Source of the DNA: a virus
Length of the DNA stretch: 64,000 bases
IMG/VR virus record: IMGVR_UViG_3300049460_000196
Span: 1 to 64,000 of that record
Strand: one strand, 5' to 3'
This document shows positions 40,753-45,779 of this stretch, piece after piece. Below the pieces are notes generated by a model. That model worked only from the letters and a program-made list of their open reading frames with translations. It ran no database searches and was not told where the DNA came from. Each line of letters starts with the position of its first letter. The first letter of the stretch is position 1. Both the position numbers and the translations under genes were made by a program.

Positions 40753-41286
40753 TCAATATGTATCAAATACCAGATGTATTCGTGTTTGATCACTGGCATT
40801 TACTGCGGTGTGCATTTCATTTGTCTTAAAACGATACAAACGCCCCACCGTTACCATACGTTCAATCTTATCGGCATTTACGAAAAAGCATCTGGGATTA
40901 GTATCGATGGGAATATGATACCGGAACTCTTCAACATCACGATGCAATGTATAGCAAGTCTTTGGTTGCAAATACATGAAGCGAATACGCCCAATATTCA
41001 CATTGTCAATTACCGCTTGTGCTTTCACGGCATCAATCACAGTTTCCATATAGGTGCCATGGAAGTGTTGATTCAATATCGCGAAGTCATGTGTGAACCG
41101 ATCAAAGACATTCAAGTCGTAGTTAAACAGCGGGCCTACACTTGAGAACCATCCTGAATCAGTTTGGGAATGTGTTACTGATAATTGCTGCCAGGTTTGG
41201 AATTCTGGCAGCAATGTAATATCTGGAATCGTACTTTTGATTCGTTGAGCAGCAAAAGTATTGGGGGTGGCGGTGATTGATTTCAT
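40753..41286 (-). CDS. Aspartyl/asparaginyl beta-hydroxylase-like 2OG oxygenase
   Basis: 177 residues. TCYTLHRDVEEFRYHIPI supplies H115 and D117. GRLYRFKTNEMHTAVNASDQTRIHLVFD supplies the distal His (159) and an Arg on the following strand, the family signature. It hydroxylates Asp/Asn-type side chains in known members. It ends an operon-like group with PP-loop proteins and a subtilase. Confidence 0.8.
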   Translation of the reverse strand: MKSITATPNTFAAQRIKSTIPDITLLPEFQTWQQLSVTHSQTDSGWFSSVGPLFNYDLNVFDRFTHDFAILNQHFHGTYMETVIDAVKAQAVIDNVNIGRIRFMYLQPKTCYTLHRDVEEFRYHIPIDTNPRCFFVNADKIERMVTVGRLYRFKTNEMHTAVNASDQTRIHLVFDTY

Positions 41287-41307
41287 ACGGGTATTTACCC
41301 GCTGGTA

Positions 41308-41565
41308 CTATTGCATTACCAGAACCTCGAAACCCAACTGCATCTTGTTCAACTCTGCAATCACATACGTGACGTAATCGAAATTTGGAACATTACGCAT
41401 TTGCGCCACCCGGGCGGCATCATCTGCGAATTTTACCAAACTATTGGCATCGCCGTCACTTACCTCATCAGGTATAGCCACCAAGACAAATTGTGGCGCA
41501 CGGCCCACCATTATGATACGCCGTACTGGCGTAATAGTGGCTTGGGGAATGTCTTTCAATTTCAT
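41308..41565 (-). CDS. Small unknown protein
   Basis: 85 residues, alpha/beta with ATITPVRRIIMVGRAPQFVLVAIPDE. No family recognised. Placed between the hydroxylase and the QueC-like gene. Confidence 0.65.
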   Translation of the reverse strand: MKLKDIPQATITPVRRIIMVGRAPQFVLVAIPDEVSDGDANSLVKFADDAARVAQMRNVPNFDYVTYVIAELNKMQLGFEVLVMQ

Positions 41566-41618
41566 TTTATCTTTCCGGCATTCAGGAAATCACATATTAC
41601 ATGGCACCAACCCAAAAA

Positions 41619-42224
41619 TCAAGTCTTAAATGAAAGATCATGTTCGACCTGTCTTGTCGCCCAAGCTCGTTCACTGCAATGAAAGCATTGACCACATGCT
41701 GGAATTGAGTCATGTTTCGGGCACGACCGAGTCAATTCCAATAATTCAGATAAGCCCAATGTCTCGTACAGGTAAATGGTTGCACGCTTATCGAAGGTAA
41801 CAAATGGAGTGGCATAACCACGATACTTATTATCCATCGCAGTTAAGGGACGAGATGGAGCTGGCCCCGTGTAATCCCAGTCAAACGGATTCTGGGTTAC
41901 ACCTGTGTACAGCCAATCCATAGTTTCCATCGTTTGATAGATGTCACGACGCAGCTTATTGTCGATCAACACGAACTCATGTTCACGAGACTTCAACTCT
42001 ACGTTGAATTGATTTTCTAACCAACCCAACGTATTGCTGATACTTGCATTCTTGAGACCATTACGGAAAACTGTATAGATCTTATCAGGCACCAACCCAT
42101 TTGCCAACAGTAGATACATGAGGATCACACTGTCAGCGCCACCGGAATACGAAATACCCGTTTGTCCTTCATGGATGGGTATTATCACATTCCGGTATGG
42201 AGTTGGATAAATGACTTCGCGCAT
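41619..42224 (-). CDS. QueC-like PP-loop ATPase
   Basis: 201 residues. PP-loop SGGADS at about residues 26-31 binds ATP and adenylates a substrate. The C-terminal CPKHDS..ACGQCFHCSERAWA cluster (Cys-x8-Cys-x2-Cys-x2-Cys) matches the zinc site of QueC (7-cyano-7-deazaguanine synthase), but the spacing is shorter and the rest diverges. It may make a deazaguanine or modify another carboxylate. The stop of the subtilase gene overlaps its start. Confidence 0.8.
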   Translation of the reverse strand: MREVIYPTPYRNVIIPIHEGQTGISYSGGADSVILMYLLLANGLVPDKIYTVFRNGLKNASISNTLGWLENQFNVELKSREHEFVLIDNKLRRDIYQTMETMDWLYTGVTQNPFDWDYTGPAPSRPLTAMDNKYRGYATPFVTFDKRATIYLYETLGLSELLELTRSCPKHDSIPACGQCFHCSERAWATRQVEHDLSFKT

Positions 42225-43820: not shown

Positions 43821-44762
43821 TTATTCCTCTTTATTAATTTGGGCAAGCGCATGGCGCTCGCGTAGAACTTCCGTGATCTCTTCTGGAAGCTCCAATAAAC
43901 TATCGTATTCTGGATACTTACTGTGATGCGGTAATCTGAAAAACTTTTCAAATGCCCAGCCATCACCAGTCATATTGGCAAAATGTTCTTTCACCAATTC
44001 AAACCCTGTATACTTCTGTTGCTGTGGAATAACACTCAAACCCAATCTGTGCATACCGGTCACCTTCGCGATGTAGCGAAGTGCGATATCGGTTGGCATA
44101 TCGGGCTGAAACAGCATGAAAGGTAAGGCGATGTCAAGTGTATATCCAAGGAAATTTCCTACCAAAGGATATTTATTGATTTCAGCAAACGTCATCCAGA
44201 CACTATGACTGCGATTGGAAATGAACTCCCATTTGCCATCTCTTATACATGGTGGATTGCCGCCGCAAATAATAGCTGATGGAGCAAACCGTTCAATCAG
44301 CATTTCGTAGAAACGGCAATGGGCAGATAGCTGTGGCGATGGACAGTTGTATTTGACCACATAGGATGGAAGGTCGCGGCCCAGAAAACTCAATATGTTG
44401 AAGTCAACCAGCGTGTACTTGAATCTATGTGTTGTGCAAAAGGTGATGGCGGAAGAAACGTCATGGATATTCAGGTCATCACGAAATTGCATAATCACAA
44501 TGGTGAATTTCACATTAGCTCGTCGCAGCAAAAGGCATGCCGCCTGACTGTCAATCCCACCACTCAAGGCAACATATATGTTTGGCCCCAAAGATGCGGA
44601 AACGCTTGCTATTGACGCCTGCTGACGAGCCAGGAGTTCGGAAGGGATATAAGCACCAGTAAGTATATCAAATTGAGCGCCAGCTGACATCCGCCAAACC
44701 AGTTTGTTGACTGGTTCGACCGTGGGGGACAACCATTTTTCATGAAAAATACCTGGGGTCAT
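43821..44762 (-). CDS. Asparagine synthase-like PP-loop protein
   Basis: 313 residues. VALSGGIDSQAACLLL is the PP-loop of the asparagine synthase/beta-lactam synthetase/lasso cyclase group. The later YVVKYNCPSPQLSAH and CGGNPPCIRDGKWEF segments fit a compact synthetase domain. No glutaminase domain is attached. It likely adenylates a carboxyl group, as in amide or peptide-bond formation. First gene of the leftward island, 1 base from the subtilase. Confidence 0.8.
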   Translation of the reverse strand: MTPGIFHEKWLSPTVEPVNKLVWRMSAGAQFDILTGAYIPSELLARQQASIASVSASLGPNIYVALSGGIDSQAACLLLRRANVKFTIVIMQFRDDLNIHDVSSAITFCTTHRFKYTLVDFNILSFLGRDLPSYVVKYNCPSPQLSAHCRFYEMLIERFAPSAIICGGNPPCIRDGKWEFISNRSHSVWMTFAEINKYPLVGNFLGYTLDIALPFMLFQPDMPTDIALRYIAKVTGMHRLGLSVIPQQQKYTGFELVKEHFANMTGDGWAFEKFFRLPHHSKYPEYDSLLELPEEITEVLRERHALAQINKEE

Positions 44763-44809
44763 TATGATATTTATAATACTTTATTAGCATATTATTGTAC
44801 TAATGCAAC

Positions 44810-45472
44810 ATGATAAATATGAATATGATAAATCTCAATAACTTTAAGGGCATTATTGACTGGCCCACCTTTGGTTTCCTGCATAATGACAACATGCTGA
44901 GTGACGAAGATTTCGCACTCTTGAACGCATATGACTTCCGCAATTGCCAATTACCAGCAGCTGAAGGCAATCGACGAATGAAACAATTCTGGTTGAATCA
45001 ACCGTTCGACGAAAGTGATCCGGTTGAAATGCTGATCAAGCGATTGCTGACTCAACTCAATAGTTGGGACGTACTAAAAAAGTTGATTGAAGATTCTTTG
45101 GCGGCAAACAATCTGGTACCAAGTGATGTCTGGAATGGCACTATCGAGGACGTCGAATCACATTATCTGGGTGTCTTCTGTGCATTCAATGAAGACTCAG
45201 ATGCCTATTACCTGAAGCCACATCGAGACTCTCGCCCAGTAATGCAGCTTTACATCAGCCCAGATGGAGCACCGGTTGGTACACGTTTTCATGTGATGGA
45301 AGATCACAGTATAATGAAACAATTACCATTCAAGGCCAATACGGGATATTTTCAGCTACCATTGAAGCGCGGGGTTCATAGTGCCATGGGTGCGGACGGA
45401 GTCACGCGGCGGTCATTGCTGTTCGGTTGGAACATGATGTATAGCAATAATCTACACCATCGAAATATATGA
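44810..45472 (+). CDS. Probable 2-oxoglutarate/Fe(II) oxygenase
   Basis: 220 residues from 44810. An internal ATG at 44828 is an alternative start. YYLKPHRDSRPVMQLYIS gives H138 and D140. GVHSAMGADGVTRRSLLFGW gives a distal His and Arg. Divergent from the asparagine synthase-like gene across a 47-base AT-rich gap, so probably part of the same island. Confidence 0.7.
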   Translation: MINMNMINLNNFKGIIDWPTFGFLHNDNMLSDEDFALLNAYDFRNCQLPAAEGNRRMKQFWLNQPFDESDPVEMLIKRLLTQLNSWDVLKKLIEDSLAANNLVPSDVWNGTIEDVESHYLGVFCAFNEDSDAYYLKPHRDSRPVMQLYISPDGAPVGTRFHVMEDHSIMKQLPFKANTGYFQLPLKRGVHSAMGADGVTRRSLLFGWNMMYSNNLHHRNI

Positions 45473-45551
45473 AGAAAGCCCGGAATTTGCTGAGTGGTTA
45501 ACCAGTCATGCGATCCAGTTCAAAACTGAGGTACCGTTCAAGAACCATCTA

Positions 45552-45779
45552 TTGGGAGTCACATATTATGCTGATTTTGTTTTTGACCATCTGAAGTTGA
45601 TTATTGAACTTGATGGTCGGCAACATCACCAAACTGTTGAATATGATTCCCGACGAGATGCGTATATTACCGCCAACTACGGGCTAAATGTGATTCGCAT
45701 AACTGCAAAGGAATATTTCAATAAAACAAGGGTCTCAGAGATTGAGACCCTTTTGATGCTACGCGGGGCAGGTCATTAG
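45552..45779 (+). CDS. DUF559-like (Vsr-type PD-(D/E)XK) nuclease
   Basis: 75 residues counted from TTG 45552, but similarity to DUF559 continues upstream in frame (ESPEFAEWLTSHAIQFKTEVPFKN...) to about 45470, where only non-standard codons are found before a stop. A non-ATG start or frameshift from the overlapping ATG at 45472 is possible. The core LIIELDGRQHH...YDSRRDAYITANYGLNVIRI carries the E/D-x-Q nuclease residues. A terminator hairpin (45730-45754) lies inside its coding end. Confidence 0.7.
   Translation: MGVTYYADFVFDHLKLIIELDGRQHHQTVEYDSRRDAYITANYGLNVIRITAKEYFNKTRVSEIETLLMLRGAGH
45730..45754 (+). terminator. Intragenic Rho-independent terminator
   Basis: 8-bp GC-rich stem and 5-base loop followed by TTTT, within the last 50 bases of the nuclease gene. 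Confidence 0.6.

Follow-up and report, generated by a model that had tools for sequence, protein, structure and literature searches.

A co-inherited PP-loop enzyme and subtilase pair of uncultivated phages, with the subtilase tail as a candidate precursor peptide

The window analyzed here, a stretch of 64,000 nucleotides (positions 1 to 64,000) from the 113,103-base IMG/VR virus record IMGVR_UViG_3300049460_000196 (labeled G000), carries an island of genes in which a PP-loop (N-type ATP pyrophosphatase) enzyme, hereafter PP1, is encoded next to a subtilase. We found 82 such adjacent pairs, counted as distinct complete sequences, in uncultivated phage contigs; the two proteins coevolve closely, and the C-terminal tail of the subtilase falls into types that follow the clades of the family. 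We propose, at about even confidence, that PP1 works on the tail of the adjacent subtilase and that the precursor of a modified product is carried in cis on the protease. An initial annotation of the window had likened the island to peptide-modification clusters and had recognized no precursor peptide. The co-inherited module lends support to the first of these views and recasts the second, given that the island has no separate precursor gene and that the candidate is the tail of the subtilase itself. None of Pfam, PHROGs, NCBIfam, and PADLOC appears to describe the module, and neither does the open literature that we searched, in which the gene combination was not found; most subscription papers lie outside that coverage.

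Results

The genes at the center of the island are these:

43821 to 44762, minus strand: PP1, a PP-loop enzyme of 313 residues with SGGIDSQA, the constant partner of the subtilase
42224 to 43819, minus strand: subtilase of 531 residues (Peptidase_S8, E = 6e-22)
42224 to 42328, minus strand: candidate precursor tail of the subtilase, its last 34 codons and stop, SDIKPLLDELSASSSFTFLEEVDQESVQSKGIKS
41619 to 42224, minus strand: QueC-like PP-loop protein of 201 residues, with SGGADS and C-x8-C-x2-C-x2-C
44810 to 45472, plus strand: 2-oxoglutarate (2OG)-Fe(II) oxygenase with HxD...H...R, divergent from PP1

All seven open reading frames (ORFs) of the initial annotation are present where it had placed them, and the head-to-tail packing it described is borne out by the junctions, which we read directly. 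One base separates the PP1 stop codon from the subtilase ATG, with a Shine-Dalgarno-like AGAGGA at this junction, and the subtilase and QueC-like genes overlap by one base, the TAA of the former sharing it with the ATG of the latter (TAATG). The mechanically called start of the subtilase, a GTG at 43966, makes the protein too long; the ATG at 43819 gives the 531 residues listed above.

Searches with single proteins and with two sequences yielded only one relative, and it was an alignment of four PP1 sequences that opened the family, with 66 loci in viral contigs; a second alignment added 49 new loci. In the first set, each of the 53 PP1 homologues that score 140 bits or more is encoded next to a subtilase, bar that of L068, which lies at a contig end. 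An apparent mismatch between PP1 and subtilase at L114/L135 arose where PP1 is cut by a contig end. Neither the four PP1 proteins nor the QueC-like protein and the oxygenase found a match by tblastn against 50,697 phage records with the sensitivity applied, and two pattern scans of GTDB genomes, which see only what their patterns allow, also gave none.

The QueC-like protein led us to a 343-kb phage record (G001, locus L002) whose block holds PP1, the subtilase, and the QueC-like protein in the window's order, with protein identities of 48, 58, and 76%, respectively. The 2OG oxygenase (60%) follows that block on the opposite strand, whereas in the window it precedes PP1. That the same four genes occur in both phages despite this rearrangement indicates that they travel together. 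Locus L031, in a 297-kb phage, has a row close to the window set: PP1, a phosphoesterase-like protein, the subtilase, two oxygenases, a QueC-like protein, and a hydroxylase of the window type. An all-against-all comparison revealed a second PP1-subtilase pair in each genome (G000, 106926 to 109388, outside the window; G001, 53688 to 56232), making the island one of two copies of the module in the window phage. The second G000 subtilase ends in a Cys-rich tail, TCSGATCGACVNPCWSCGPKNGGCICAAQNAC, very unlike the tail of the first.

Distances in the PP1 and subtilase trees correlate strongly, with r = 0.966 over 51 pairs of tail classes A and B (described below) and r = 0.897 over all 82. On the 31 loci that also carry a GNAT protein, r was 0.975 for PP1 and subtilase and 0.31 for PP1 and GNAT, which indicates that the pair stays together while some neighbors are swapped. 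The oxygenase upstream of PP1 gave an r of 0.91 (25 loci).

PP1 had been called asparagine synthase-like. It is indeed a PP-loop protein, but the narrower label does not stand, the matches being generic and weak ones to MnmA, NadE, and QueC, none of them above curated cutoffs. Invariant in 53 PP1 homologues are SGGxDSQ, N98, P143, K250, G253, and F254, and the second conserved region reads K-x2-GFE-x2-K. A low-confidence model of PP1 matches MnmA, TtuA, LarE, carbapenam and beta-lactam synthetases, and TilS, all of them ATP-using, substrate-activating enzymes.

The subtilase consists of an N-terminal region of ~100 residues, an S8 catalytic domain (D132, H165, N256, S322), a beta domain, and the C-terminal tail. 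Its catalytic residues are intact across the family, with D, H, and N kept in 85 of 85 homologues and Ser in all 84 that reach that position. The window tail is 94% identical to that of G001 (shared sequence SDIKPxLDELSASSSFTFLEEVDQESVQxKGIKS), against 56% for the remainder of the protein; no other run of 34 residues in the subtilase is as conserved. Because 15 of the 32 identical tail residues (47%) use a different codon in the two phages, the tail is constrained at the protein level, and a DNA-level cause such as a ribosome-binding site was ruled out. No further copy of the tail was found in either genome (G000, G001).

Across the family, tail type follows clade, with classes B and C monophyletic in both the PP1 and the subtilase trees; class D (L099 to L102) is rare. 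Class A tails comprise a 16-residue anchor (e.g., SDVTLALTDVNSISFF), a variable tip of 5 to 8 residues, and an [ILF]K end (19 of 19), and among the ORFs of those loci the anchor pattern picks out 18, all of them subtilases. The class A loci L038 and L039 have 87% identity in the catalytic domain, 100% in the anchor, and 33% in the tip. Within this class, the window and G001 group with L030 and L031 in a sub-branch. Class B tails all have an even number of Cys residues (8 in 19 tails, 6 in four, and 10 in two, for 25 of 25) within otherwise variable loops; L052 and L055, with 90% identity in the catalytic domain, share 8 of 8 Cys and 23% of the other tail residues. Class C tails have a Tyr/Asp-rich anchor of the YYYDxDxxSYDEVVSYQVAP type followed by a variable tip; a Lys is among the final four residues in 23 of 25, and here the PP1 and subtilase genes diverge.

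A Hint domain that starts with Cys directly follows the Cys tail in L065, L072, and L080, and a Peptidase_S74 chaperone domain does so in L083. Domains of these two kinds cleave themselves, a hint that it matters for the end of the tail to be free. One record, IMGVR_UViG_3300028588_000819 (L051, L073), has three class B pairs; two of these stand in tandem, and their tails differ.

In the first 66 loci we counted the genes that lie no more than 6.5 kb from PP1. The commonest is a 2OG oxygenase (31 loci), which stands directly upstream of PP1 in class A; GNAT comes next (29), and then a HELVH metallopeptidase-like protein (21). Two more occur in 20 loci each, a second 2OG oxygenase and a phosphoesterase-like protein that is encoded on the opposite strand and was assigned by motif only. 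Less frequent are DUF6171 (16), a further oxygenase (8), the QueC-like protein (7), and the window's hydroxylase family (6). Several of the oxygenases lack a Pfam match and were named from HxD/H motifs read in their sequences. The hydroxylase family also occurs in L031, L075, L079, L087/088, L116 to L118, and L136. Class C differs in its neighbors: most loci have a radical SAM protein, and 36 of 36 have a radical-SAM-like protein that lacks the CxxxCxxC motif. In L140 (3956 to 5254) and L116 (3850 to 5143), class C pairs adjoin genes for ribonucleotide reductase, for a protein with a PAAR motif, and for a radical SAM protein, and the pseudo-radical-SAM gene stands directly downstream of the subtilase. 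We considered an adjacent Cys-rich ORF of 75 residues as a precursor and set the idea aside, since this ORF belongs to DUF6171, a distinct family of phage proteins.

The remaining genes of the island, and two relatives of PP1 neighbors elsewhere in the window, are as follows:

40753 to 41286, minus strand: aspartyl/asparaginyl-hydroxylase-like 2OG oxygenase (Asp_Arg_Hydrox, E = 5e-11)
41308 to 41565, minus strand: ORF of 85 residues, with no match in family searches
45552 to 45779, plus strand: short DUF559/REase-like ORF that ends at tRNA-Arg (DUF559, E = 2e-11)
17990 to 18544, minus strand: GNAT of the family that adjoins PP1 in 29 of 66 loci, unlinked in the window (E = 4e-41)
34147 to 34374, minus strand: DUF6171 Cys protein, which adjoins class B pairs in other phages and is unlinked in the window

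The 85-residue ORF, the hydroxylase, and the DUF559 ORF are absent from the G001 block, and neither the 85-residue nor the DUF559 ORF has a relative among loci L029 to L094; the DUF559 ORF falls outside the conserved module, and so, as far as these loci show, does the 85-residue ORF. The island as first described thus holds for its core genes, which are co-inherited in other phages, and not for these two. The oxygenase at 44810 to 45472 has no Pfam match and keeps its HxD...H...R in the G001 relative. An ORF at 22116 to 22667 (minus strand), unlinked to the island, weakly matches (E = 1e-9) another family of PP1-neighboring 2OG oxygenases.

The QueC-like family has 11 members near PP1 loci, of 195 to 232 residues. 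The window protein has both canonical QueC elements, SGGxDS and C(x)8CxxCxxC; in the family the four Cys are kept in 11 of 11, with varying spacing, and SGGxDS in 10 of 11. The PF06508 match of the window protein (E = 5e-6) covers only the C-terminal Zn part. None of the 11 members has the canonical QueC motifs YxQxHxxE, VPxRN, and YPDC, for which PMC13329287 served as the reference, or the Cap9 motifs [YF]xQ(x)5E and YxDC. QatC is a protein of about 400 residues with extensions, encoded beside QatA, QatB, and QatD; no such neighbors were recognized, nor was a CD-NTase among the recurrent neighbors of PP1. By these motifs the QueC-like protein is neither a canonical QueC nor a Cap9 nor a QatC (compared with PMC13329287 and PMC13279940), which speaks against a role confined to feeding tRNA queuosine.

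Other features surround the island. Just past it and the tRNA-Arg lies a full-length GOLLD RNA (46391 to 46843, minus strand; Rfam RF02032, 203 bits), and ARAGORN places 11 tRNA genes, several of them for Leu, within 34057 to 61658. A tmRNA call at 54538 to 55017 is doubtful and has no Rfam support at the gathering score. An RNA 2'-phosphotransferase (phrog_5470, E = 2e-61) is encoded near the island at 38817 to 39374 (minus strand), and G001 has a homologue.

Discussion

If PP1 works on the subtilase tail, the conserved anchor would be the recognition site for PP1 and the tailoring enzymes, and the variable tip would in most lineages be the segment that is modified. PP1 would adenylate a group at the tip, accessory enzymes would decorate it (in the window, the QueC-like ligase and the two 2OG oxygenases), and the subtilase, once mature and active as a protease, would either set the tip free or act while still bearing it. 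The product may accordingly be either a modified peptide or a self-modified protease. We tentatively suggest, without pressing the point, that such phages possess a new class of system, an active protease bearing at its own end a peptide tip that can diversify and is modified by enzymes. The tip could serve as a released, phage-specific signal or weapon or as a covalent warhead, and several unrelated tip chemistries (Lys-ended, multi-Cys, and Tyr/Asp-anchored) have been mounted on one PP-loop/subtilase chassis.

Several observations weigh against this proposal. The chemistry, site, and fate of the modification are matters that we infer, and the chemistry of PP1 cannot be read from its sequence; the two AlphaFold predictions scored low (pLDDT 51 and 43), so they do not show where the tail lies. 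In a control on the last 12 residues of close pairs, GNAT and the downstream oxygenase also vary, while PP1, the upstream oxygenase, the phosphoesterase-like protein, and the class C partner do not. Taken by itself, a variable C terminus is thus a weak sign of a core peptide, and we rejected it as sole proof; the argument is carried by the fixed anchors and the fixed positions of Lys and Cys. The even Cys counts would also fit plain disulfides and, the sequences being related, are not 25 independent events. The S74 fusion of L083 and an Ig-like domain would fit a virion protein. Finally, the tailoring genes differ between loci, and some relatives lie far off in the window genome. In favor of the proposal, differing sets of tailoring enzymes next to a single chassis would be difficult to account for if nothing there were modified.

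In the main rival reading, the tail would be a variable targeting or docking tip, shaped by an arms race, of a protease that is active inside the cell or after ejection, with PP1 modifying or regulating the body of the protease instead of the tail. Such a tip is consistent with a catalytic triad that is never lost, with a conserved anchor and variable end, and with even Cys counts suggestive of a folded disulfide or metal mini-domain, but it leaves unexplained why PP1 class tracks tail class and why oxygenases, radical SAM proteins, and GNAT recur; we consider it possible though unlikely. We give decidedly little credence to the subtilase as a component of a virion tail spike or fiber whose C-terminal tip binds receptors and which PP1 and the oxygenases modify. 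The S74 chaperone of L083 is typical of spikes, no signal peptide is visible by eye, and a PAAR-motif gene lies near most class C loci; high-scoring PP1 loci, however, have no recurrent structural neighbors, class C adjoins ribonucleotide reductase genes, and the S74 fusion was seen only once.

It is very improbable that the product of PP1 and the QueC-like protein is a modified nucleobase or a tRNA or DNA modification, with the subtilase unrelated to it. The PP-loop fold does lie near MnmA, TilS, and QueC, and phage QueC annotations exist, but the constant pairing and coevolution of PP1 with the subtilase and the absence of QueC substrate motifs from all 11 QueC-like proteins argue otherwise. 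We set hardly any store by a Qat-like or CBASS-like anti-phage system in which the QueC-like protein would conjugate a nucleobase to a partner protein. The retained Zn and SGGxDS motifs agree with it, as would a weak C-terminal similarity to Cap9 that is not significant (E = 1.5), whereas no QatA, QatB, QatD, or CD-NTase was recognized among the recurrent neighbors, Cap9 and QatC motifs are absent, and the QueC-like gene occurs in only a minority of loci. The anti-phage idea raised in the initial annotation gains no direct support from PADLOC, in which the matches are to generic QueC and subtilase only.

The proposed modification of the subtilase tail by PP1 gives a testable function to a gene pair of uncultivated phages from many metagenomes that is unnamed in the libraries searched. 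If the proposal is true, modified peptides or self-modifying proteases are products of the phages themselves, built on a conserved chassis with exchangeable tips; the family would then offer new PP-loop and oxygenase chemistry, and perhaps also new signals between phage and host or between phages.

Comparison with known systems

QueC-family conjugation, by Cap9 of type IV CBASS and QatC of Qat, likewise places a PP-loop enzyme beside a flexible conserved terminus (PMC11996544, PMC13279940, PMC13329287), and the QueC-like partner here shares SGGxDS and the four-Cys motif. The tail of the subtilase, in contrast, is C-terminal rather than N-terminal, and the loci have neither YxDC nor another CDG-recognition motif, nor immune partner genes. 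A different likeness is to the lasso-peptide and beta-lactam synthetases, which share with PP1 an AsnB-related PP-loop fold, as a low-confidence model would have it, that may be suited to carboxylate adenylation; no glutaminase-type domain and no leader peptidase of that type were seen here.

Ribosomally synthesized and post-translationally modified peptides (RiPPs) offer a closer parallel. A conserved recognition part with a variable core is found in the tails of classes A, B, and C, an argument that is weaker for A and C given that some other C termini vary too, and tailoring enzymes (PP1, 2OG oxygenases, radical SAM proteins, and GNAT) are encoded with the candidate precursor. Some RiPP clusters also hold an S8 subtilase beside tailoring enzymes, as with PatA/PatG of cyanobactins and QhpE. 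The NCBIfam matches of our subtilase to such proteases are weak (about 1e-10 to 1e-12) and far below cutoff, the mycosin of type VII secretion matches equally well or better, and the tail is fused to the protease in place of a separate precursor gene.

Borosins are RiPPs in which the modifying methyltransferase bears the core peptide as a fusion at its own C terminus (PMC7878506). Here, too, a candidate core would lie in cis at the C terminus of a large enzyme, with other enzymes encoded nearby. We draw on borosins as an analogy and not as a claim of membership: in place of an alpha-N-methyltransferase fused to its core, the carrier is a subtilase (Peptidase_S8) and the proposed modifier a PP-loop ATPase, and the module is encoded by phages and sets several unrelated tail types on one carrier.

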